Origin: Armatimonadota bacterium
GTDB lineage: Bacteria; Armatimonadota; DTGP01; JAKQQT01
Assembly (NCBI GenBank): GCA_036504095.1
Contig: DASXVS010000046.1
Location: 1 to 64,000 of the forward strand
Direction of reading: 5' to 3'
Length of the DNA stretch: 64,000 nt
Shown here: positions 6,117 to 51,092 of the stretch, in pieces
Numbering within the stretch: position 1 is the first letter of the stretch
Layout of the letters: each line of letters opens with the position of its first letter
The notes under the pieces: model-generated
Seen by the model: only the letters and a program-made list of their open reading frames with translations
Told to the model about the DNA's origin: nothing
Databases searched by the model: none
Program-made: the position numbers and the translations under genes

Positions 6117-6171
6117 AGAGGCTCCTGAACTGATGATAGTACCGTGGCGGGCGGCCGGGTCAACGGCGGGT

Positions 6172-6290
6172 GCCGGGTTCCGGGTTCCGTGGCAGCATCC
6201 AGCATCCGGCATCCAGCATTCAGGCCGGAGGGGGCGGGCGGAGGACGGGCAATGCAAAATGAAAAATGGAGAATGAAAAATGCAGGGTGC
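6172..6290. repeat. Mixed heptad repeats (GGGTTCC, CAGCATC, AAAATGA)
   Basis: Several 7-bp words follow one another: GGGTTCC, then CAGCATC and CGGCATC with a spacer starting CAGGCCGGAGG, then AAAATGA, AAAATGG and AGAATGA. A short CATCCATCGTTCATCATCC stretch follows at 6356-6372. The block separates the binding-protein gene from the small RNA locus. No ORF of its own is credible here. Confidence 0.85.
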
Positions 6291-6374
6291 CCGACGCAAA
6301 GCGTTCAACCCAGCCCTTCTCTCGGAGTGTGAGGGGGTGAGGGGTCCAGACCCGCCATCCATCGTTCATCATCC

Positions 6375-6409
6375 AAAAACCGGCCCCGCCTCTATTGAGA
6401 CGGGGCCGG
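6375..6409 (-). terminator. Intrinsic terminator of the small RNA
   Basis: CCGGCCCCG pairs perfectly with CGGGGCCGG, and an inner CTC/GAG stem continues it; on the minus strand the hairpin is followed by UUUUU (6375-6379). Confidence 0.75.
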
Positions 6410-6519
6410 ACGGTATACTGTTTGGGTCTAGAGGCCGAAGCCTCCGTGAAGAAGAGCCTCAGCCCCTACAGTCACCTCGACTGTGATCTAACATACTTAG
6501 CATCCCTCCTTTCGTGTCT
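6375..6519 (-). ncRNA. Candidate small structured RNA with own promoter and terminator
   Basis: On the minus strand an extended -10 box (TGGTATAAT, 6526-6534) would start a transcript near 6519. The RNA has a hairpin at 6468-6484 (ACAGUC-GAGGU-GACUGU), a hairpin with a UUCG tetraloop at 6431-6444 (GAGGC-UUCG-GCCUC), and an intrinsic terminator at 6380-6409 followed by five U. Near its 5' end is AAAGGAGGG, then two ATG codons (6503 and 6494) opening an 11-14 codon frame ending MLDHSRGDCRG. It may be a regulatory sRNA, possibly with anti-Shine-Dalgarno-like exposure, or a tiny-peptide mRNA. I do not recognise a known RNA family. Confidence 0.55.
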
Positions 6520-6525
6520 ACCGGA

Positions 6526-6534
6526 ATTATACCA
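6526..6534 (-). promoter_or_regulatory. Extended -10 promoter of the small RNA
   Basis: TGGTATAAT on the minus strand is a perfect extended -10 element (TGn plus TATAAT). There is no good -35 hexamer at 17 bp, which is usual for extended -10 promoters. The predicted start at 6519 is an A. Confidence 0.6.
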
Positions 6535-6582
6535 CAACGGAAGTCGATTGGGACCACTTTTGGGAGAAGGGGGCGGGTGACA

Positions 6583-6857
6583 GCATTCAGGGGCCAGGAT
6601 TCAGGATTCAGGATTCAGCATTCAGCATCCAGCATCCAGCATCCAGGGTTTGGGGTTCAGGTGCAGGATTCAGGATACAGGATTCAGGATTCAGGATTCA
6701 GGACTCAGCATCCAGCATCCGGCATCCGGCATCCAGGGTTTGGGATTCAGGATTCAGGATACAGGAGTTAGGACACAGGATTTAGGAGTAGGAACAACTG
6801 AGACTTGAGGCCGGTTGCCCGATTCTCAAGTCTCAATTCTCAAGTCTCAATTCTGAA
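6583..6857. repeat. Heptad arrays GGATTCA/CAGCATC and an inverted CTCAAGT element
   Basis: Positions 6583-6785 hold words such as GGATTCA, CAGCATC and CGGCATC, all with a 7-bp period. At 6798-6857 a left arm (GAGACTTGAG) and a spacer starting GGCCGGTTGCCCG are followed by inverted words CTCAAGT and CTCAATT. The inverted unit sits directly behind the stop codon of the Spy-like gene at 6862. Confidence 0.9.
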
Positions 6858-6861
6858 CGGC

Positions 6862-9614: not shown

Positions 9615-10550
9615 TCAGCGTTTGGTGAAGGCCCATTTCAGGACGTAGACCAGGACGAATCCGACCGCCGCGCCGGCGATCATGGTCTCCGGTCCGCCCT
9701 CCGTCATCATCAGCGCGCCGACAACCGCTCCGACCCAGGAGTATCCGGGGCGCGGCAGGACGGGAAGCGAAAGCCGGCGGTCGGAATAGCGCAGCGGCGG
9801 CAGGCGCAGGTTCGCGAGGTCGAGCGGCGGCGGCACATCAACCGGCGTCGGGGCCGGGGGGGCGGAATCCAGGTAGGTGCGCTTCCCGCGTTCGTATTCG
9901 GCCGCCGGCGCGTGAGCGGCCAGGACCGCCGCGGCCGCGTCGAAAAACGGGGCGTCGAGGCTGTAAACCACGGGATAGTGCTCCCGCAGCACCGGCAGGA
10001 CCATCGCGTAGGAGCGCGGCGCTTCGGCGATATCGTACTGGAGCAGTTCGCGCGCGGCGTTGGCCATCACCCCGGATTCGGCATGCTCGGGCTCTTCCGG
10101 ATCCCCGGCGAGGGCGACGGCATAGCGGATGAGGCGGTGCGGGAACGCGCTGTTATTGCGCAGGCGCAGTATCTCGCCGCGGGCGGCGGCGCAGCGGGCC
10201 TCGTCCGGAGGCGCCACGGCCGGCGCATCGGGGTCTGCGGCGGCGAGCAGGATGGGGACGGCACGATGGTCCGGTGCGATCCGGCGGGCGCGGTCGAAAT
10301 GGTCATGCGCGGCGCGGGCATCGCCGGCGGCGAGCGCCGCGACTCCCCAGGCGAGCGCCAGTTCGAAGGCGAGGCCCTGTGTCGAGCGCGCGTCGTAATC
10401 CGCGCGGGCGCCCGGATCGGCCAGGACGTCCAGGGCGACGGCCGCCTCGGTGCGTATTCCGCCGGTTTCGACGAGCGCGGCGGCCCGGACCATGTTCGAG
10501 GGGACGTCTAACGGGAGTCCGGCCAGTTCATAGAGGGTTGATGGGTACAT
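9615..10550 (-). CDS. J-like N-terminus, TPR-like membrane protein
   Basis: The 311-residue protein begins like a J-domain: MYPSTLYELAGLPLDVPSN at the N-terminus and DVLADPGARADYDAR at residues 41-55, matching the LxDPxxRxxYD end of J-domains. The HPD motif needed to stimulate DnaK is absent. A helical, TPR-like part follows (AWGVAALAAGDARAAHDHF), and two C-terminal membrane helices lie at about 268-305. The start codon directly abuts a heptad repeat (10552 on), without a Shine-Dalgarno sequence. No function is assigned. Confidence 0.65.
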   Translation of the reverse strand: MYPSTLYELAGLPLDVPSNMVRAAALVETGGIRTEAAVALDVLADPGARADYDARSTQGLAFELALAWGVAALAAGDARAAHDHFDRARRIAPDHRAVPILLAAADPDAPAVAPPDEARCAAARGEILRLRNNSAFPHRLIRYAVALAGDPEEPEHAESGVMANAARELLQYDIAEAPRSYAMVLPVLREHYPVVYSLDAPFFDAAAAVLAAHAPAAEYERGKRTYLDSAPPAPTPVDVPPPLDLANLRLPPLRYSDRRLSLPVLPRPGYSWVGAVVGALMMTEGGPETMIAGAAVGFVLVYVLKWAFTKR

Positions 10551-10551
10551 A

Positions 10552-10756
10552 TTTCAGGGCTGAGGGCTGAGGGCCGAGGGCTGAGAGCTGAGGGCTGAGG
10601 GCCGAGGGCTGAGAGCCGAGGGCTGAGAGCTGAGGGCTGAGGGCCGAGGGCTGAGGGCTGAGGGCCGAGAGCCGAGGGCCGAGGGCTTAGGGCCGAGGGC
10701 TGAGAGCCTAGGGCTGAGGGCTGGGGGCCGAGAGCCGAGAGCCGAGGGCTGAGATT
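10552..10756. repeat. Heptad array GGGCTGA/GGGCCGA/GAGAGCT
   Basis: About 29 words with 7-bp period, a mixture of GGGCTGA, GGGCCGA, GAGAGCC and GAGAGCT. It begins two bases before the start codon of the leftward gene at 10550, where a leader and ribosome site would be expected. It is related to the array at 1-183. Confidence 0.95.
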
Positions 10757-10823
10757 CTTCATTTCGTTCAGAATGACACATCAGGGATACTCAGTTCTCA
10801 ATACTCAGACTTCAATTCACCTT

Positions 10824-11753
10824 TCATCTCCATTGGTCTTCCTTCCACCATGATGGTGGTGCGATTTCGACAAGCGGTTCTTCGTCCTTGATCTGTTTTT
10901 TGCGATGACGGCGGACGGTAAGGATGCCCCATACGAGGGCACCGAACATCATGAACGGCACGATCCACTCGGCGACGGTGACCCAGAAGGCGAATCGCGC
11001 GTTGAACCAGGCGGTGTGGCGCCATTGGGACTCCCAATCGGTTGCGCTCATGCCGTAGGCGCTTCGCATTGCGGCATCGAACGATGCGGCGGTCTTGAGT
11101 TCGGACAGGAGGGAGCGCACCCTGGGCCAGCCATTGCCGTAGTCGAGCAGCGCCATCACGGCGTCCTGCGACTCATCGTAGGCGAGGCCGGCGCTGTCTC
11201 CGACCGGGAACCGGCTCTTGAGGTCGCCCAGCGGAATCAGGCGGCCATTAACATACGCATCGGAAACGCGGGCGCGCGCCGCGTCGCCGTCCGCGCCGCC
11301 CGCGACCTGAGCGATCCCCTCGTTCATCCAGAGCGGAAGCAATCCGATTGACGGCCCGAGGTCGTAATACAGGAAGATGTGGGCGATTTCGTGGCCGACG
11401 ACCCGGTCCGGGGCTTCGAAAATCTTGCTGGCATCCAGCCGAACCGCCTCGTCCGCGCTGGTGGCGACGCCCAAGACGAGTTCCGACCGGTTGATCCCCG
11501 TGTCCCGGATGAACTCCTTGCGGTCCGAATAGAGGTAGACGGGTATGCGCTGGGTCGGCGTGAAGCTGAGCAGTTGCGAGATGCGATCGAACGCGGCTTC
11601 GGCGCTGCGCTGCACGGAATCCACCTCCACCGTGCGGGACTTATCGTAGTAGAAGCGGAAATGGGGGCTGTCGGTCACGCGCTTGGGTGAGGCGAACGCC
11701 ACCGATACGCTCGTGGCGCACAACATCGCGGCTATGAACGCCCATGGCCTCAT
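10824..11753 (-). CDS. Membrane-anchored gluzincin metallopeptidase (MA-like)
   Basis: The 309-residue protein has a signal peptide (1-21), an extracytoplasmic catalytic domain with the zinc motif H121-E-I-A-H125 and a downstream NEG motif (E145) that gives the third zinc ligand, as in peptidase-MA-like gluzincins, and one membrane helix at about 258-281 with a basic cytoplasmic tail. The segment FRFYYDKSRTVEVDSVQRSA is typical of this family's N-terminus. A TATAAT box ends seven bases before the start codon, so the mRNA is probably leaderless. Substrates are unknown. Confidence 0.8.
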   Translation of the reverse strand: MRPWAFIAAMLCATSVSVAFASPKRVTDSPHFRFYYDKSRTVEVDSVQRSAEAAFDRISQLLSFTPTQRIPVYLYSDRKEFIRDTGINRSELVLGVATSADEAVRLDASKIFEAPDRVVGHEIAHIFLYYDLGPSIGLLPLWMNEGIAQVAGGADGDAARARVSDAYVNGRLIPLGDLKSRFPVGDSAGLAYDESQDAVMALLDYGNGWPRVRSLLSELKTAASFDAAMRSAYGMSATDWESQWRHTAWFNARFAFWVTVAEWIVPFMMFGALVWGILTVRRHRKKQIKDEEPLVEIAPPSWWKEDQWR

Positions 11754-11760
11754 ACATGGT

Positions 11761-11766
11761 ATTATA
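11761..11766 (-). promoter_or_regulatory. -10 box placing a leaderless start for the metallopeptidase gene
   Basis: TATAAT on the minus strand ends 7 bp upstream of the ATG at 11753. GGAACC lies 17 bp further upstream. Transcription would begin at or next to the start codon, and no Shine-Dalgarno sequence is present. Confidence 0.5.
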
Positions 11767-11855
11767 CGCCACTGAGGGCCGCAGGTTCCGCGTTAACCGC
11801 ATTTCGGCACGGATGGAGCGGCGGACGGGGGCGGGAAACCGGGAAGCAATGAACA

Positions 11856-11902
11856 GAGGCTTGAGACCGGGGGCTACCGCAGCCGCTCAACTCTCAAGCC
11901 TC
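11856..11902. repeat. Inverted heptad element, GAGGCTTGAGA arms
   Basis: A perfect 11-bp inverted repeat (11856-11866 and 11892-11902) surrounds a spacer beginning CCGGGGGC. It follows the stop codon of the gene at 11910 and could also act as a terminator. Confidence 0.8.
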
Positions 11903-11909
11903 CATTCCG

Positions 11910-13253
11910 CTATTTGCCCAGAATCATCTCGCGCGGGATGATGATCCGACGTTCCAGCATCCTGCCGTTGCCCCTGCCGGGAACGACGTCCTTGCCGGGA
12001 GCGAGTCCTTCTCCGATCCAGCCCAGGATGTCCTGAACCGTTTCCGGCTGACGGCGCACCCGCGGGTCGAGGCGGATGATGACTTCGTACTGGGCGGACT
12101 CCAGCGGGAACAGTTCCTCCGGCTTGCGCGGCGGCTCCAGCATGGTGTCCTTGCTCATGTCCAGGGGGACCCAGGGCTTCTTCTGGTAAAGCACCTGGCC
12201 ATCGGATTCCACGATGTTGTAGATGCTGCGGAACCGGGTGAGGTGTTTGGGGCCCCACGTAAGATCGTTGGTATGGGCGGCCTGCAGTTTGTCGTAATCC
12301 TTGTCCTGGACCACGAACTCCAGGCGCGCATTGCTCACCTCGCCCAGATTATCGCGCATCGGCGGGAGGCCATTCACCCGGCAGTGAACGCCGAGGACGC
12401 GCTTGCCCTGGTTTCGGAGTTGAACATCGAAGGAGACGTGTTTCGGGTTCTTCGCGAGGTCCCTGCGGCCAACATCGCGGACGATGACGAGGTTGAGGTT
12501 CAGCCTGCAGACGTCGCGTTCCTGTTCCCAGAGGCGGGCGGAGTTTTCGTCCTTGGCCGCTTTCGCCTTTGCGATCTCGCGTTCGGCGAAGGCCATGTTA
12601 TCCGTCCAGGTCTTGCGGGCCTCGTCAATCTTGCCCTGGCGGGCGAGGCAGTGGGCGACCATGTGCGAGATATAGCGCGGCGGGGGCGTGCCGTCGGCCC
12701 CGTTGTGCCTGTCCGCCTCCTCGAAATAGGGAAGCGCGGCGAAGTAGTCTTCAACCGGCCAGTCAAAATTGGACCAGCCCAGTTGGAAATACAGGTCCCA
12801 TATTTTGGGATTGTTGGCGACGCCCTCTTTCAGGAACGAAAGGCCCTGGGGGACCATCCGCGGGTCGCCGAAATTGTACATCAGGTGCCAGGCACCGGTG
12901 CTGTAGACGTCGGTCTGGTGGGGATCCATGAAGGTCACCAGGCTGAAATACGGCACCAGTTCCTGGTATTTGCCTTCGTGGAAGAGTTCATCGGCCTTTA
13001 CCCAGAGCATGCCGGCGGCCACCTCGCGAAAGCCCAGCATGCTGGCGCCGAACATGTTGTTGCGGAGGCTGTCGATGAAGGATTTGCCCGGTGTCTTGAG
13101 GATGGGGTTGTAGTAGTGCCTGTGCTTGTCGATGTCCGTCAGCGTGAACATCGCGCACAGCCACAGCGCGGCCACCACAAGGGCGGTCTTCGTCCTGCTC
13201 ATCGTCTGACCATACGCGTCGGGGCCGGTTGATTTCGGGGTGTTGGTGGTCAT
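11910..13253 (-). CDS. Single-pass membrane protein with TPR-like repeats, ABC-linked
   Basis: The 447-residue protein has one N-terminal membrane helix (about residues 23-41) and a long extracytoplasmic part with TPR-like helices between 75 and 250 (FHEGKYQELVPYFSLVTFMD, YISHMVAHCLARQGKIDEAR). Its start codon overlaps the stop of the ABC-2 permease gene by four bases (ATGA), so it is the third gene of an ATPase, permease, partner operon. I do not recognise a family; a structural or accessory role for the exporter is an inference from the coupling. A longer frame to 13307 lies inside the permease gene and is not used. Confidence 0.75.
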   Translation of the reverse strand: MTTNTPKSTGPDAYGQTMSRTKTALVVAALWLCAMFTLTDIDKHRHYYNPILKTPGKSFIDSLRNNMFGASMLGFREVAAGMLWVKADELFHEGKYQELVPYFSLVTFMDPHQTDVYSTGAWHLMYNFGDPRMVPQGLSFLKEGVANNPKIWDLYFQLGWSNFDWPVEDYFAALPYFEEADRHNGADGTPPPRYISHMVAHCLARQGKIDEARKTWTDNMAFAEREIAKAKAAKDENSARLWEQERDVCRLNLNLVIVRDVGRRDLAKNPKHVSFDVQLRNQGKRVLGVHCRVNGLPPMRDNLGEVSNARLEFVVQDKDYDKLQAAHTNDLTWGPKHLTRFRSIYNIVESDGQVLYQKKPWVPLDMSKDTMLEPPRKPEELFPLESAQYEVIIRLDPRVRRQPETVQDILGWIGEGLAPGKDVVPGRGNGRMLERRIIIPREMILGK

Positions 13254-14062
13254 ACTTCCTTCCGGCTGAAGACGGCGACGGCGATCACCAGAACGCCGGA
13301 CGTCCACAGTATCCCATACAGCACGGACGCTGCCGCGTCGTGGGCCAGAGTGGGAGTTTCCTTCCAGAGTTCGGGGTGCACGATGATGTTCACGAAGTTG
13401 AACGAGTAAAAGCTGGGAATGGCCACGTGCAGGAAATTCGCGATCCAGTGGATGACCGGGCTGGGCGCCGCTTTCGCGATGTCCTGCCAGAACTCATTGA
13501 CGGTGCCCAGGATGTAGAACCCGAAGCACATCGCCACGTTGATGTTCCTGGTGACGAGCAGGCTGAGCATGATGCTGATGCCGGCGAGGAGAACGAACTG
13601 CAGAAACGTGAAGAAGACGCCGGCGAGGATGGGCCACTGGATCTGCATCGTTTTCGCGAAAACCACGACCATCAGGGCGAGACCCATGAACGCGATGTTC
13701 ACCGCGAGGGCCATCACTGTGCCCACGAACTTCCCGAGGACGTACTGCCACCGCCAGACGGGCTTGCTGAGGATGGTGTAGATTGTCTTCTTTTCGCAAT
13801 CGGACGGGATGAGGTCGAAGGAGAGGAAGATCGCGAGGATGAGGCCGCCGATGACCATGATGCCGAAGGCCATGCTGGTGATGATCTGCACTTCGAGGCT
13901 GCCGGACGACGCCGTCTGCTGCGCCACGCTGCCGGACATGCTCAGCGATGCGAAGAGCTGCGACAGGACGATGAAGATCAGACTGGTGAACAGGATATAC
14001 ATCCCGATCTTCTTACGGATGGCCTCACCGAAGGTGCTGCGCGCTATTACCCAAGTGTTCAT
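13250..14062 (-). CDS. ABC-2 type transporter permease
   Basis: The 270-residue protein has about six membrane helices: near residues 20-40, 60-85, 105-135, 140-170, 175-195 and 245-265. The N-terminus MNTWVIARSTFGEAIRKKIG and the segment SDCEKKTIYTILSKPVWRWQYVLGK (in pieces) are typical of ABC-2 permeases of the NosY/CcmB-like export type. It works with the ATPase at 14170. The 107-bp gap between them is filled by an inverted heptad element. Confidence 0.88.
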   Translation of the reverse strand: MNTWVIARSTFGEAIRKKIGMYILFTSLIFIVLSQLFASLSMSGSVAQQTASSGSLEVQIITSMAFGIMVIGGLILAIFLSFDLIPSDCEKKTIYTILSKPVWRWQYVLGKFVGTVMALAVNIAFMGLALMVVVFAKTMQIQWPILAGVFFTFLQFVLLAGISIMLSLLVTRNINVAMCFGFYILGTVNEFWQDIAKAAPSPVIHWIANFLHVAIPSFYSFNFVNIIVHPELWKETPTLAHDAAASVLYGILWTSGVLVIAVAVFSRKEV

Positions 14063-14083
14063 TATTTCGTACCTTATTGTGAG

Positions 14084-14168
14084 GGAAACGAGTAAATGGG
14101 GAAACGGGGAAATGAGGAACCGATCCGGGTCATTTCCTCATTTTCACATTTCCTCATCACCACATCCC
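14084..14168. repeat. Inverted heptad element, GGAAATG type
   Basis: Words such as GTAAATG, GGGAAAC and GGAAATG are followed by a spacer CCGATCCGGG and inverted words TCATTTCC and CATTTCCTCATC. It lies between ATPase and permease cistrons of one transport operon. Confidence 0.85.
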
Positions 14169-14169
14169 A

Positions 14170-15132
14170 CTAGTCCTGGTGGGCCACCGTGGGCTCGCTG
14201 GGCTTGACGGCGACGGTCTCGCGGACGGTTTCGATAAACAGGTCTTCCAGGCTGCGGCGTTCCGGCGTGAGGCTGACGATGCGGGCGCCGGCTCCGCGGA
14301 TGACGTCAACCAACTGGTTTACCTTGTTGTCATCGTCGGACCAGATGGTCATCTGTCCGTCCTCATCATCGACCTTGTCTGCGATGGCAACGACCTGCTT
14401 GGCGGCCTCGGGCGTGAGGCCCAGGGTGACGATGCGAACCTGGCTGCCGGAGAGAAGGTCGGCCACGTGGCCGGTGGTTCGCAGCGTGCCCTTATGGATG
14501 ATGGCGACGCGGTCGCACACCATCTCGACGTCGCTGAGCTGATGGCTGCTGAGGAAGATCGTTTTGCCCTCTTCCTTGAGGCGGAGGATGAGGTTTCGGA
14601 TATCGATATGGGCGACCGGATCCAGGCCGGAGGTGGGCTCATCGAAGAAGAGGAGTTTGGGGTCGTTGATGAGCGACTGAGCGAGTCCGATTCGCTGGAG
14701 CATGCCCTTTGAATACTGCCTCAGGGTTCGGCCGGTTGCGTGGCCGAGGCCGACCTCATCGATGAGGCGCTCGATGCGTTCCTTGCGGACTTTGGCGGTG
14801 AGGCCGAAGAGGCGGCCGTAGAAATCCAGGAGCTCCGGGCCGGTCATGAAGTCATAGAAATAGGGCGACTCCGGAAGGTAAGCGATATCGTATTTGACGC
14901 TGATGTCGCCGATCGGCTTGCCGAGGAGCGTTGCCTTGCCGGAGGACGCGAAGATGAGGCCGAGGAGCATCTTGATGGTGGTCGTTTTGCCGGCTCCGTT
15001 CGGGCCGAGGAACCCGAAGATCTGGCCGGTCTCCACGGCGAGCGTAAGGTCATTCACGGCTGTAAAGGTACCGCCTCCGACTACGTTGCGGTATTTTTTG
15101 GTGAGGTTCTGGATCTCGATGGCTGCCGCCAT
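14170..15132 (-). CDS. ABC transporter ATP-binding protein
   Basis: The 320-residue protein has a Walker A motif GPNGAGKTT (43-51), the ABC signature YSKGMLQRIG, Walker B LLFFDEPTSGLD and an H-loop FLSSHQLSD. The C-terminal extension of about 100 residues is usual in CcmA/NatA-type exporter ATPases. It drives the ABC-2 permease at 13250. GGGAG lies seven bases before the start. The C-terminus ends shortly before the heptad element that separates it from the permease gene. Confidence 0.93.
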   Translation of the reverse strand: MAAAIEIQNLTKKYRNVVGGGTFTAVNDLTLAVETGQIFGFLGPNGAGKTTTIKMLLGLIFASSGKATLLGKPIGDISVKYDIAYLPESPYFYDFMTGPELLDFYGRLFGLTAKVRKERIERLIDEVGLGHATGRTLRQYSKGMLQRIGLAQSLINDPKLLFFDEPTSGLDPVAHIDIRNLILRLKEEGKTIFLSSHQLSDVEMVCDRVAIIHKGTLRTTGHVADLLSGSQVRIVTLGLTPEAAKQVVAIADKVDDEDGQMTIWSDDDNKVNQLVDVIRGAGARIVSLTPERRSLEDLFIETVRETVAVKPSEPTVAHQD

Positions 15133-15235
15133 GGGCCGCTCCCAACGCCCGTACGGGCAAATGTGTCAAACGTGTTGGCGCGATATTGCGCCCGTGTCAT
15201 CCTATTATGCGCGAGTTCGCGAGTCAAGGGGGGGG

Positions 15236-15420
15236 CCGGCAGCCAGCATCCAGCATCCGGCATCCGGCATCCGACAGCCAGCATCCAGCATCCAGCATCC
15301 AGCATCCAGGATTTAGGGTTCAGGGTTCAGGGTTCAGGGTTCAGGGTTCACGGTTCAGGATTCAGGATTCAGGGTTCAGGATTCAGGATTCAGGATTCAG
15401 GATTCAGGCTGGAGGCCGCT
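15236..15420. repeat. Heptad array CAGCATC then GGGTTCA/GGATTCA
   Basis: Roughly ten CAGCATC or CGGCATC words are followed by about sixteen GGGTTCA, GGATTCA or CGGTTCA words. It lies upstream of the ABC ATPase gene. Frames through it encode only low-complexity peptides and were not called. Confidence 0.95.
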
Positions 15421-15519
15421 TTGCGGTGACTCGGGCGCACATGGTTGGTTGACGATGGAGGGGAGCTTTCAGTTCCCCGGGAGGCCGGAGGGTGCAGAGG
15501 ATGGCGGGGGCGACCGGTA

Positions 15520-15792
15520 TTTGCCATTGGCCATTTGCCATTGGCCATTGGCCATTTGCCAATTGCCATTTGACAACGGGGGGCGGGAGCGCCTGCGAGA
15601 CGGATGCGGGCGAGGCGCCCGGTATTTGCCATTGGCCATTTGCCAGTTGTCATTTGACAATGGGGGGCGGGAGCGCCTGCGAGACGGATGCGGGCGGGGC
15701 GCCCGCGCTACGGGTCAGCGGTGTCTGGGCGACGGATGCGGGCGGAGGCGACCGCGCTACGGGTCAGGGGCGCGCGGCGTCCGCGGTACGGG
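15520..15792. repeat. TTGCCAT heptads and duplicated 36-bp GC-rich units
   Basis: TTGCCAT, TGGCCAT and TTGCCAA words occur at 15525-15570 and again at 15627-15660. Each block is followed by a near-identical unit of about 36 bp rich in GGGCGGGAGCGCC (15576 and 15661). Further right, the words GCGCTACGGGTCAG and close variants repeat three times before the end of hflX. No gene is present. Confidence 0.9.
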
Positions 15793-35860: not shown

Positions 35861-35945
35861 ACGATGAACGATGAGCGATGAACGATGAATGGCCGTCCGG
35901 GAAATGGGTCCGGGAGCTCATCGTTCATCGCTCATCGTTCATCAT
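35861..35945. repeat. MITE-like inverted heptad element without a gene
   Basis: Arms of 28 bp (35861-35888 and 35918-35945, words AACGATG and AGCGATG) match as inverted repeats at 27 of 28 positions, separated by a 29-bp spacer containing GGCCGTCCGGG and GGGTCCGGG. It starts right after the stop codon of the aldo/keto reductase gene. The right arm forms the last codons of kdsB (MNDER). The same words flank the four-helix-bundle gene at 45331. Confidence 0.93.
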
Positions 35946-44180: not shown

Positions 44181-45311
<1,131 letters not shown>

Positions 45312-45313
<2 letters not shown>

Positions 45314-45754
45314 ACGATGAAGGCGGAACGATGAACGATGAACGGCCGGAGGGTCGGTTGGACAAGACGAGCGACCTTCCTCAAAGAACCAAGAGATTTG
45401 CGCTTTCCGTGATCAGGCTCTTTGCCGAGGTGCCGAAACGCGCAGATGCACAAGTGATCGCCCGGCAGATGGTTCGCAGCGGGACATCTGTAGGAGCCAA
45501 TTACCGTGAGGCGCACCGAGCACGCACAACGGCCGAGTTCATCAGCAAGTTGGAGGTCGTACTGCAGGAACTGGACGAAACGGCCTTCTGGTTCGAGTTG
45601 CTGATCGAGGGTTGCGGAATGCCGACCGACTTGGTTGGCCCACTTCAGTGTGAAGCTGAGGAGTTGATATGCATTACGGTAGCTTCCGTCAAGACTGCCA
45701 AGACCCGGTTAGCGCGTTGAGCGTTCATCGTTCATCGTTCCGACTTCATCATTC
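45312..45754 (+). mobile_element. IVS-like element: inverted heptad arms around a 4HB gene
   Basis: Arms of 33 bp (45312-45344 and 45722-45754; words GAACGAT and GATGAAG) are inverted repeats with 31 of 33 matches. Between them lies one gene, the four-helix-bundle protein. The unit starts at the pyrR stop codon and ends 12 bp before pyrB. S23-type proteins are known from intervening sequences inside 23S rRNA that are bounded by inverted repeats; this unit has the same plan but is in a protein operon. No target duplication is visible. Confidence 0.65.
45331..45720 (+). CDS. Four-helix-bundle protein (S23/IVS family)
   Basis: The 129-residue protein matches the S23 four-helix-bundle family: [20 protein letters not shown], then [20 protein letters not shown], and [20 protein letters not shown]. 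The central SVGANYREA is the family hallmark (usually SIxANIAEG). These proteins form pentamers and are linked with 23S rRNA intervening sequences and, as Avd, with diversity-generating retroelements. The first residues, MNDERPEG, are encoded by the left repeat arm. No reverse transcriptase is near. It is inserted between pyrR and pyrB. Confidence 0.9.
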
Positions 45755-45766
45755 GGTGCCACTGCC

Positions 45767-46699
45767 ATGAATCTTGCTAAACAAAGCGTATTGGAGCTTC
45801 AGCCGATGCCGGCTGACCAGATCGGCCTGATTCTGGATACCGCGGAGTATTTCCGGGGCATCCTGGAGCGGCCGATTAAGAAGGTCCCCGTGCTGCGCGG
45901 CAAATCGGTATGCACGCTTTTCTATGAGGCGTCCACGCGGACGCGGACATCCTTTGAGATCGCCGCGAAGACGTTGAGCGCGGATACAAGCAGCGTCGCG
46001 GTTGCGGCGTCATCGGTCACGAAGGGCGAATCGCTGAAGGACACGTCGCTGACGCTGGCCGCGATGGGCATCGACGCGTTCGTGATCCGCCATCAGGCGA
46101 GCGGCGCCCCGCACAACGTGGCCAAATGGACGGGGCTGCCCGTCATTAACGCCGGCGACGGCCAGCACGAGCACCCATCCCAGGGACTGCTGGACATGCT
46201 GACGATCCGGCGCCACAAGGGCGACTGGAAGGGCCTGAAGGTGGCGATCGTCGGGGACATCCGGCACTCTCGCGTCGCGCGCAGCGATATGTGGGGGCTC
46301 ACGCGGATGGGCGCGGAGGTGTGGCTGTGCGGCCCGAAACCGCTGCTGCCACCGGTGACCGACCACTGGCCCGCGCGGGTGACGACCAATATCGACGAAG
46401 CCCTTGACGGCGCGGACGTGGTGAACGTGCTTCGCATCCAGATGGAGCGGCAGGACCAGGGGCTTTTCCCCACGACGCGCGAATACCATCAGCGCTACGG
46501 CATCACAGCGGACCGCCTGAAGCGGTGCCAGGACGATGTGATGGTGATGCACCCCGGCCCCATGAACCGCGGGATCGAGATCAGCTCCGACGTTGCGGAC
46601 GCGGACTATGCGGTCATAGATGAACAGGTGACAAACGGCGTTGCGGTGCGGATGGCGCTCCTTTACCTCGTTCTTGGTGGAGAGTTGACAAAGCTATGA
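45767..46699 (+). CDS. pyrB: Aspartate carbamoyltransferase catalytic subunit
   Basis: The 310-residue enzyme joins carbamoyl phosphate and aspartate. Motifs are [19 protein letters not shown] (carbamoyl-phosphate loop), [23 protein letters not shown] and [11 protein letters not shown]. The length is standard. No Shine-Dalgarno sequence is seen; the right arm of the 4HB element ends 12 bp before the ATG. The stop overlaps the MFS gene by four bases. No pyrI regulatory subunit is present. Confidence 0.97.
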
Positions 46700-49510: not shown

Positions 49511-50677
49511 ATGAAGGCGTTACTTGTACTAGAGGACGGGATGGTTTGGGAAGGGACCGGCATCGGTATGCCGGGCACTTCGCTGGGCGAGGTTGTGTTC
49601 AACACGAGCATGACCGGCTATCAGGAGATGCTGACCGATCCCTCGTATGCCGGGCAGATTCTGACGTTGACGTATCCCCTGATCGGGAACTACGGCGTAA
49701 CGGACCTGGACGACGAATCGCTGGCGGTGCAGGTGTCCGGGTTGATCGTCCGCGAACTGGCGGAAGTGCCGAGCAACTGGCGGAGCGCGGGCACGCTGCA
49801 GGATTATCTCACCAGGACCGGGGTCGTGGGCCTGCAGGGCGTGGACACGCGGGCGCTGGCCCGGCACCTGCGGACCGCCGGCGTGATGATGGGAGCCGTT
49901 TCCACGGAGTATTCGGCGGAGGAGTTGGTGGCGCAGATCAAAGTCGCGCCCAATTACGGCACGTTCGATTTCGTGAAGGACCGCAGCGTGAAGGTCGCGA
50001 CGCCGTGGACCGGCGGCATCGGCGACGATCCGGTGCGCGCCAAGTGGCTTAAGCGCGAAGGACGAGCACCGCACAAAGTCGCGCTCCTGGACCTGGGCGT
50101 GAAGCACAACATCATGCGGACCCTGGCCGATCTGGGGTGCGAGGTGACCGCCTGGCCGTGCGACAGCGCCGCCGAGGCGGTGCTCGAGACCATACCGGAT
50201 GGCATCGTGGTTTCACCCGGCCCCGGCGATCCGGCGCAGCTCGGGTACCTGGTCAAGACCGTGAAAGCCTTCGCGGAGAGCGGCAAGCCGGTTCTGGGAA
50301 TCTGCCTGGGACACCAACTGCTGGGCTATGCGTTCGGCGGTCGCACGTTCAAACTCCCGTTCGGCCACCGCGGGGCGAACCACCCGGTGAAAGACCTGGC
50401 GACGGGGCGCGTGAGCATCACGAGCCAGAACCACGGTTATGCGGTGGACGCTGCCGGGCTGGAGGGAAGCGGACTGGAGGTGAGCCGGCTGAACCTGAAC
50501 GACAACACGGTCGAGGGGCTGAGGCACCGGGAGCTTCCCGTTTTCAGCATCCAGTACCACCCCGAAGCCAGCCCGGGGCCGCGCGACAGCATGGGGCTTT
50601 TTGAGGAATTCGTTTCAATGCTGGAAGAGCATCCAGCATCCAGCATCCAGCATTCAGGCCCGGAGGCCAAGCCATGA
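49511..50677 (+). CDS. carA: Carbamoyl-phosphate synthetase small (glutaminase) subunit
   Basis: The 388-residue subunit hydrolyses glutamine and passes ammonia to the large subunit. The N-terminal domain has EVVFNTSMTGYQEMLTDPSY, and the glutaminase domain has the nucleophile in PVLGICLGHQLLGYAFGG and the catalytic His-x-Glu in IQYHPEASPGP. The natural C-terminus seems to be near residue 372; the last 16 residues (HPASSIQHSGPEAKP after EE) are encoded by the left arm of the second 4HB element. The stop overlaps the next start by four bases. Confidence 0.97.
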   Translation: MKALLVLEDGMVWEGTGIGMPGTSLGEVVFNTSMTGYQEMLTDPSYAGQILTLTYPLIGNYGVTDLDDESLAVQVSGLIVRELAEVPSNWRSAGTLQDYLTRTGVVGLQGVDTRALARHLRTAGVMMGAVSTEYSAEELVAQIKVAPNYGTFDFVKDRSVKVATPWTGGIGDDPVRAKWLKREGRAPHKVALLDLGVKHNIMRTLADLGCEVTAWPCDSAAEAVLETIPDGIVVSPGPGDPAQLGYLVKTVKAFAESGKPVLGICLGHQLLGYAFGGRTFKLPFGHRGANHPVKDLATGRVSITSQNHGYAVDAAGLEGSGLEVSRLNLNDNTVEGLRHRELPVFSIQYHPEASPGPRDSMGLFEEFVSMLEEHPASSIQHSGPEAKP

Positions 50678-51092
50678 GCCTGACCGGCTACCAGGACCTT
50701 GTGGCCTGGCAGAAGGCAATGGATATGGTCGTTGCCGCCTACGCGTTGGCACAACGATTTCCGAAGACCGAGGTCTATGGTCTCGTAAGCCAACTGCAGC
50801 GATCCTCCGTTTCGGTGCCCGCCAATATCGCCGAAGGGCGCTCGCGCCGGAGAACCAAGGAGTTCCTTCACCACCTGGACATTGCCTATGGCTCCCTGGG
50901 CGAAACTGAGACGCATATCCATCTGGCGCTTCGGCTCGGCTTCGTTTCGGTGGAAGAGACAACCGCTTTCTTTGCGCTGTCCTCGGAGGTTGGCCGCCTT
51001 CTTAATGGACTGCTCAACTCCCTGACCGCGAAAGCCGATGACGCCCCTTCTGAAATCGGGGCCTGAATGCCGGATGCAGAATGCTGAATGCT
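50628..51092 (+). mobile_element. Second IVS-like element: CAGCATC arms around a 4HB gene
   Basis: Arms of 37 bp (50628-50664, CAGCATC words then CAGGCCC; 51056-51092, its inverse) match at about 32 of 37 positions and enclose a second four-helix-bundle gene. The arm sequence is different from that of the first element (GAACGAT words), but the plan is the same. The left arm is within the carA frame and the right arm contains the 4HB stop codon. Confidence 0.65.
50674..51066 (+). CDS. Four-helix-bundle protein (S23/IVS family)
   Basis: The 130-residue protein is a canonical S23-type four-helix bundle: YQDLVAWQKAMDMVVAAYAL at the N-terminus, SQLQRSSVSVPANIAEGRSR in the centre, and FLHHLDIAYGSLGETETHIH. 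It is closer to the family consensus than the copy at 45331. GGAGG in the element spacer precedes its ATG, and the ATG overlaps the carA stop codon. Function in this place is unknown; RNA binding is a plausible inference. Confidence 0.92.
   Translation: MSLTGYQDLVAWQKAMDMVVAAYALAQRFPKTEVYGLVSQLQRSSVSVPANIAEGRSRRRTKEFLHHLDIAYGSLGETETHIHLALRLGFVSVEETTAFFALSSEVGRLLNGLLNSLTAKADDAPSEIGA

Follow-up and report, generated by a model that had tools for sequence, protein, structure and literature searches.

The window analysed here is a 64,000-nucleotide stretch of an Armatimonadota contig (DASXVS010000046.1). At the junction of its pyrR and pyrB genes, a single gene is enclosed between two inverted repeats:

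44756-45313, forward strand: pyrR, the upstream host gene (NF003549, 241 bits)
45312-45344, forward strand: 5′ arm, 33 nt, an array of GATGAAC-like heptads with a GGCGG interruption whose counterpart in the 3′ arm differs by one base
45348-45353, forward strand: GGAGGG, the likely ribosome-binding site of the S23 gene
45331-45720, forward strand: S23 (four-helix-bundle) gene, ORF from ATG 45331, likely start TTG 45358
45722-45754, forward strand: 3′ arm, reverse complement of the 5′ arm at 31 of 33 positions
45767-46699, forward strand: pyrB, the downstream host gene, whose counterpart in the relative G001 is 81% identical

We take the last gene to be pyrB from the STRTRT motif, which was recognised by eye rather than through a family search. 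The arms are 377 nt apart, the whole unit measures 443 nt, and the 5′ arm begins within the pyrR stop codon (45311-45313). Neither a second gene nor a reverse transcriptase was found between the arms. The one ORF present there (129 aa) exceeds the curated cut-offs of PF05635 (52.2 bits, cut-off 33.8) and TIGR02436 (74 bits, cut-off 24), which makes it a member of the S23, or 23S_rRNA_IVP, family, and it matches the solved chain 2rld_A (E 5.3e-17). A 443-bp unit with 33-bp inverted repeats and a single S23 gene between pyrR and pyrB, as described in the initial annotation, was thus confirmed. The best-known members of the S23 family are encoded in rRNA inserts. The ATG at 45331 falls within the 5′ arm. 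Since the 120-aa product started at TTG 45358, behind the GGAGGG, fits the lengths of aligned homologues better, translation probably starts at this TTG, just outside the stem.

The arms pair with each other in both the minimum-energy and the centroid structures predicted for the RNA of the element, and the predicted fold has a z of -4.39 relative to 100 shuffles. The models thus agree with the earlier proposal of a transcript stem that holds the ORF in its loop. Lag-7 identity within the arms is 0.73-0.77, in keeping with a tandem-heptad hairpin of the STRR type, and the inverted-repeat score of the element (L007) is 29. No Rfam family matched L007 at the gathering score. As a control, we used 303 genes called by a purpose-written simple caller in 464 kb of the source genome, with 60 testable genes of at most 200 aa among them (59 non-S23); two of the four S23 genes of this region were found by the caller. 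A flank inverted-repeat score of at least 19 was seen in only one of 301 non-S23 genes. This control and the shuffles rule out a chance inverted repeat. The sole control gene at score 19 is rplN, which lies among heptad hairpins of a ribosomal-protein operon. At L050 (about 10150-14700, G000 C40), hairpins of GAGTTCC-unit heptads are located at several ribosomal-protein operon junctions, around rpsH and rplN (genes read by eye).

Other repeats are present upstream of pyrR. Tandem REP-like palindromes of the GGGGCATGAATGCCCC and AGGGCCTTCGGCC types occupy 44200-44450, 3′ of a small gene and 5′ of pyrR, and resemble in kind the repeats that bound Y1 transposase genes in genome G079. A conserved pyrR leader (GTCCCGTGAGGCNGGCAAGGC ... 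GGGAAGG-TTTTTC) at 44620-44750 is common to G001 and is possibly a PyrR attenuator. In two genera, short-unit arrays occupy equivalent positions ahead of pyrR (44527-44600 and, as reverse complement, L011), with units that differ between them (TTTCCCCA-like versus GAATCCT-like).

The PF05635 profile gave eight matches in the source genome (L001-L008). By eye, inverted repeats of short units flank all eight genes, and the units differ. The arm scores are, in order, 22, 15, 27, 23, 22, 17, 29 and 24, so that six copies reach 19 and the weak arms are those of L002 and L006; period 7 gives the best arms in seven copies and period 8 in L006. L005 is located within the 23S rRNA gene (RF02541), roughly 1190 nt from its 5′ end, presumably near helix 45, a known site of intervening sequences (IVSs). 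The other seven copies have co-directional neighbours on both sides. Two of these seven lie in the window, one at pyrR-pyrB and the other between carA and carB (carB was identified by eye):

49511-50677, forward strand: carA, upstream host of the second element (PF00988 and PF00117), its 3′ end running into the heptad array
50628-50661, forward strand: 5′ arm of the second element, unit AGCATCC
50674-51066, forward strand: second S23 gene (PF05635, 119 bits)
51059-51092, forward strand: 3′ arm of the second element

Four of the eight sites (L001, L002, L003 and L007) were compared with relatives. In G001, the one same-family relative compared, pyrR lies directly against pyrB, with 10 nt between the pyrR stop and the pyrB start and no insert, as expected of an insertion. 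The same genome has empty S23 sites between the class-V aminotransferase gene and serA (18 nt between genes) and between the small and large hydrogenase subunit genes (64 nt). In G059, about 150 nt separate carA from carB; this spacer has another palindromic stretch in it and lacks an S23 gene.

Six of the other seven S23 proteins of the source genome were aligned with L001 and share 13-51% identity with it. In a FastTree of 142 S23 proteins, which are short, the eight copies occupy eight separate places, and the nearest neighbour of L001 is a Chloroflexota sequence. Because of this low identity and scattered placement, the copies do not appear to be recent duplicates. From the empty sites and the scattered kinship we infer that the elements move. 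The initial annotation had envisaged a mobile class of S23 elements outside rRNA; the class is borne out here and in the other bacteria described below, but movement as a unit is not, since no near-identical copies with shared arms were found at different sites.

Inverted ends and empty sites would also be expected of a non-autonomous, MITE-like DNA transposon with terminal inverted repeats that is moved in trans, for example by a Y1 transposase, and S23 copy number does correlate with the number of Y1 transposases (rho 0.65; 0.47 after genome size). We disfavour this reading as very improbable: the ends have no sequence in common between copies, and the two readable Y1 genes (in G079) lie between other, REP-like inverted repeats without heptads. 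No target-site duplication could be read from the empty sites, whose relatives are too diverged. Because the arms carry no sequence common to the copies, and their units differ among all eight, a classic insertion sequence or other transposon with fixed ends is disfavoured as well. A REP/RAYT system was rejected, there being no Y1 gene in the element and other repeats at the two Y1 loci read. So was a reverse transcriptase acting in trans, whose number does not track that of S23 genes (rho 0.16).

PF05635 matches are present in 142 of 291 genomes of the phylum. We collected 62 loci from 32 genomes, including the source genome; 61 were testable, mostly the best match per genome together with the copies of four genomes. 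Left out were L040 (short flank), L071 (under the cut-off), and L074 and L083, which are a single frame-shifted gene at the end of a contig. An arm score of at least 19 was obtained at 50 of the 61 loci and in 1.5% of 1473 mismatched flank pairs; 11 loci fell below it, and L037 is tallied as a miss though its 3′ array sits farther out. The 99% point of the mismatched pairs was exceeded by 47 loci, in which the best arm period is 7 (32 loci), 8 (nine), 9 (four), 6 or 10 (one each). None of the 20 phylum loci scanned had an Rfam rRNA match.

Beyond the phylum, a named set was formed from the best 80 of at least 590 matches to one peptide pattern, and it represents one branch of the family. Judged by record title, these best 80 of at least 590 fall under 24 labels of phylum or class; for 20 of the labels, one locus or more passes the score, and none of the 80 has an Rfam rRNA match. 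Of 76 testable loci in this best-80 set (L097, L116, L120 and L139 were left out for short flanks), 52 score at least 19, compared to 2.1% of 2000 mismatched pairs, and 24 score lower; the best period of the 52 is 7 in 46 and 8 in six. One S23 query matched 32 of 72,556 plasmid records. Among six plasmid records read, five score at least 19; they correspond to four sites, of which three pass. In two cyanobacterial plasmids (L299 and L300), the S23 gene lies inside CRISPR-Cas operons, in the orders cas10-S23-cmr3 and cas6-S23-cas4. The cas10-S23-cmr3 order is that of Picosynechococcus sp. PCC 7003, and Trichormus variabilis ATCC 29413 also has a plasmid-borne S23 element. The S23 elements at L028 and L031 adjoin SRP RNA and tRNA genes. 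Two further identities for the gene were rejected: four S23 proteins gave no PADLOC match to defence genes, and one query (L001) had no match in 50,697 phage records. On these data, the pyrR-pyrB unit is an IVS-like hairpin that carries S23 within an mRNA operon, and it belongs to a class that spans many phyla.

The upstream neighbour is co-directional at 106 of 114 S23 loci, compared to a baseline of 295 of 371 (Fisher p 0.0006; simple caller), and the downstream neighbour at 86 of 112, no more than the baseline (p 0.6). Where the upstream gene is co-directional, no more than 9 nt lie between that gene's stop codon and the start of the 5′ arm at 44 of 77 loci; random placement of the arm in the searched flank would give 10.4. 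The 5′ arm contains 38% G and 13% C, and G exceeds C in 44 of 50 arms. These features bear on the possibility that the arms are slippage products, that S23 genes merely sit in repeat-rich intergenic spots and that palindromic correction matches the two sides. Heptad repeats are indeed common in these genomes, slippage has been proposed for heptanucleotides in the accessible text of two reports (PMC4679880, PMC4692102), and unit copy number differs between related plasmids and, in the accessible part of a further report, between Coxiella strains (PMC4990558). Between related conjugative plasmids of Trichormus and Scytonema, the 5′ arm varies by two heptads. Against it, matched arms were found at only one of 301 other genes versus most S23 loci, and the 5′ arm is linked both to the upstream stop codon and to G-richness of the sense strand. 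We consider this explanation improbable and disfavour it. A test of unit order between the arms leans towards a match by construction, since the arms were picked as the best alignment.

The gene order groES-S23-groEL occurs in five genomes (G104, G107, G121, G134 and G135; groES and groEL by eye). The counts of GTGA and GTAA units in the 5′ and then the 3′ arm are 3/2 and 5/1 in both G104 and G107, and 1/4 and 1/4 in G121. It follows that the repeat unit has shifted in both arms, and this would be a shift in concert at an orthologous site, a single event read from few sequences. The stems predicted at this site comprise 42, 36 and 51 arm pairs in G104, G107 and G121, respectively. In G134 and G135, the 3′ array is of period 8 and the 5′ arm is short, and the arm scores are only 14-15. 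Substitution patterns in the coding region indicate that the S23 ORF is under purifying selection: dN/dS is 0.062 for the pair L018/L037 and 0.082 for both L122/L126 and L135/L145 (dS 0.5-1.05), and among the remaining pairs some were saturated and the others gave 0.10-0.18 or, from just two changes, 0.32.

Heptad arrays are also frequent away from S23 genes. In the 464 kb of the source genome, we counted 72 arrays of period 7, 14 of period 8 and four of period 9, and none in a Markov control; many of the heptad arrays form short-loop hairpins. One hairpin in the window has the same unit as the pyrR-pyrB element:

35863-35943, unstranded: heptad hairpin without a gene, unit GATGAAC, 29-nt loop

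Long arrays of other units (GAGGGCT, AGCATCC/GGATTCA and CATTTGC) are located at 1-187, 6164-6858, 10552-10755 and 15231-15656 of the window. For three of the eight elements of the source genome, 14-mers of the arms recur at least 10 times elsewhere in the 464 kb, which is true of one of 47 and five of 67 foreign arms (p 0.008 each); the arms of L001, L005 and L008 recur one, zero and two times. The idea that the arms draw on a repeat vocabulary shared with the host is thus only partly borne out.

Within family f15, array density rises with S23 copy number (rho 0.53, p 5e-4). Nineteen S23-less genomes, that is, genomes absent from the PF05635 match list, have no arrays in 723,070 bases, and 20 S23-bearing genomes have 29 in 782,844 bases, located in five genomes. 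G093 (all N, S23-less) and G005, G111 and G228 (fewer than 3000 letters) were left out of this set, and G134 was entered with one S23 copy in the density test and with four in the copy-number correlations. Copy number also follows genome size (rho 0.62). Because it follows both size and Y1 number, the array link may reflect repeat-tolerant genomes; array density is tied to S23 number in a suggestive way that is confounded with genome size.

These arrays could be understood if S23 were a resident RNA-binding regulator, the heptad hairpins throughout the genome being its sites and the flanking pair serving autoregulation and operon uncoupling, so that the system would be regulatory and not selfish. 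The abundance of similar arrays away from S23, their rise with copy number in one family, the strong purifying selection on S23 and insertion within operons such as groES-groEL and cas10-cmr3 are all in line with it. Sequence-specific binding is nevertheless hard to reconcile with units that vary widely between loci, patchy presence and empty sites in relatives speak against a resident function, and S23 number is linked to genome size and Y1 number as well. In addition, the eight S23 proteins of the source genome are near-neutral in charge and not basic, which also lends no support to the suggestion of the initial annotation that the protein could act on its own stem. On balance, we regard a regulatory S23 as unlikely.

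Several known systems share parts of this anatomy. In the accessible part of its description, the 23S IVS of Coxiella burnetii contains an S23 ORF, tandem GACAGAT heptamers ahead of the S23 start and a stem of 28 bp that RNase III cleaves, and its S23p was concluded to be probably not expressed and decaying (PMC4990558). The S23 IVSs of 23S rRNA, as far as described there, and the pyrR-pyrB element have in common a single S23 ORF, a stem of about 28-33 bp and a size of about 430-440 nt, and the inverted repeats of the latter can likewise form a long predicted RNA stem around the ORF. Unlike those IVSs, the pyrR-pyrB element and the 80 named loci (the best 80 of at least 590) lie outside rRNA; and unlike the Coxiella IVS, as portrayed in the same accessible text (PMC4990558), the element is placed in an operon and S23 ORFs are under purifying selection (three pairs) rather than decaying.

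Heptad hairpins between co-directional genes are also known from cyanobacteria (STRRs), for example between hupS and hupL; their function is given as unknown, with roles in transcript stability or translational coupling proposed, and the accessible text describes them without an S23 gene in the loop (PMC2670836), in contrast to the pyrR-pyrB element. Multicopy tandem hepta- and octanucleotide elements of Geobacter metallireducens (PMC2700814) and heptads of Xanthomonas and Nostoc (PMC4692102) resemble ours in being intergenic and sometimes in inverted pairs, but in the parts of these reports that are available they are read as regulator sites or G-quadruplexes and are not tied to S23. The heptads of Beggiatoaceae are likewise described without S23 in the accessible text (PMC4679880). 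A likeness to the Avd protein of diversity-generating retroelements (DGRs) is seen in PHROG matches of L001 (E 3.2e-13) and L003 (1.6e-9) to 'Avd protein of DGR'; in contrast to a DGR, the pyrR-pyrB protein has no Avd match at E 0.01 and its element is a single ORF with no reverse transcriptase. The literature searched, which lay mostly outside subscription journals and preprints, contained no link of S23 to heptad arms beyond rRNA.

Our preferred reading starts from the anatomy, the placement, the empty sites, the selection on the ORF and the breadth of the class, all of which are observed. We think it fairly probable that the loci represent widespread IVS-like S23 hairpin elements that live in mRNAs, are probably cut by RNase III and have their arms rewritten in place. 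In such an element, short tandem repeats of period 7 or, more rarely, 8 or 9 would form a stem whose loop holds the S23 gene; the element would follow immediately on a host gene's stop codon and be transcribed as part of the host transcript. The arms would pair in RNA, and the resulting stem is probably cut by RNase III, the enzyme that excises rRNA IVSs without religation. Such cleavage would divide the operon mRNA into fragments that decay independently and would release the loop that encodes S23. Since it is under selection, the S23 protein is probably made, and it probably serves the spread or upkeep of the hairpins. The arms have no fixed sequence. Within an element the two arms match, from one element to the next they differ, and a change in place can affect both together; they are therefore probably rewritten, perhaps through copying of one arm onto the other or through repeat turnover under selection for pairing.

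More tentatively, S23 may be the trans-acting factor of bacteria-wide, RNA-borne hairpins without fixed ends. The S23-carrying elements would then be autonomous and the solo heptad hairpins and arrays of S23-bearing genomes their derivatives, arms would be rewritten in concert, and rRNA IVSs would be the same elements landed in rRNA. We treat this wider scheme as a possibility well short of probable.

Usual accounts present IVSs as a curiosity of rRNA genes; heptad repeats are put down to slippage or read as regulator sites. If heptad arms regularly surround S23 genes at operon stop codons, the two belong to one system, and this system would rearrange operon mRNAs in many phyla, including those of groES-groEL, the pyr genes, hydrogenase and CRISPR-Cas. 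Should S23 prove to be the trans-acting factor, two old puzzles, the IVSs and the bacterial heptad repeats, would be joined. The link to heptad arms would also make the function of the very widespread S23 family directly testable.
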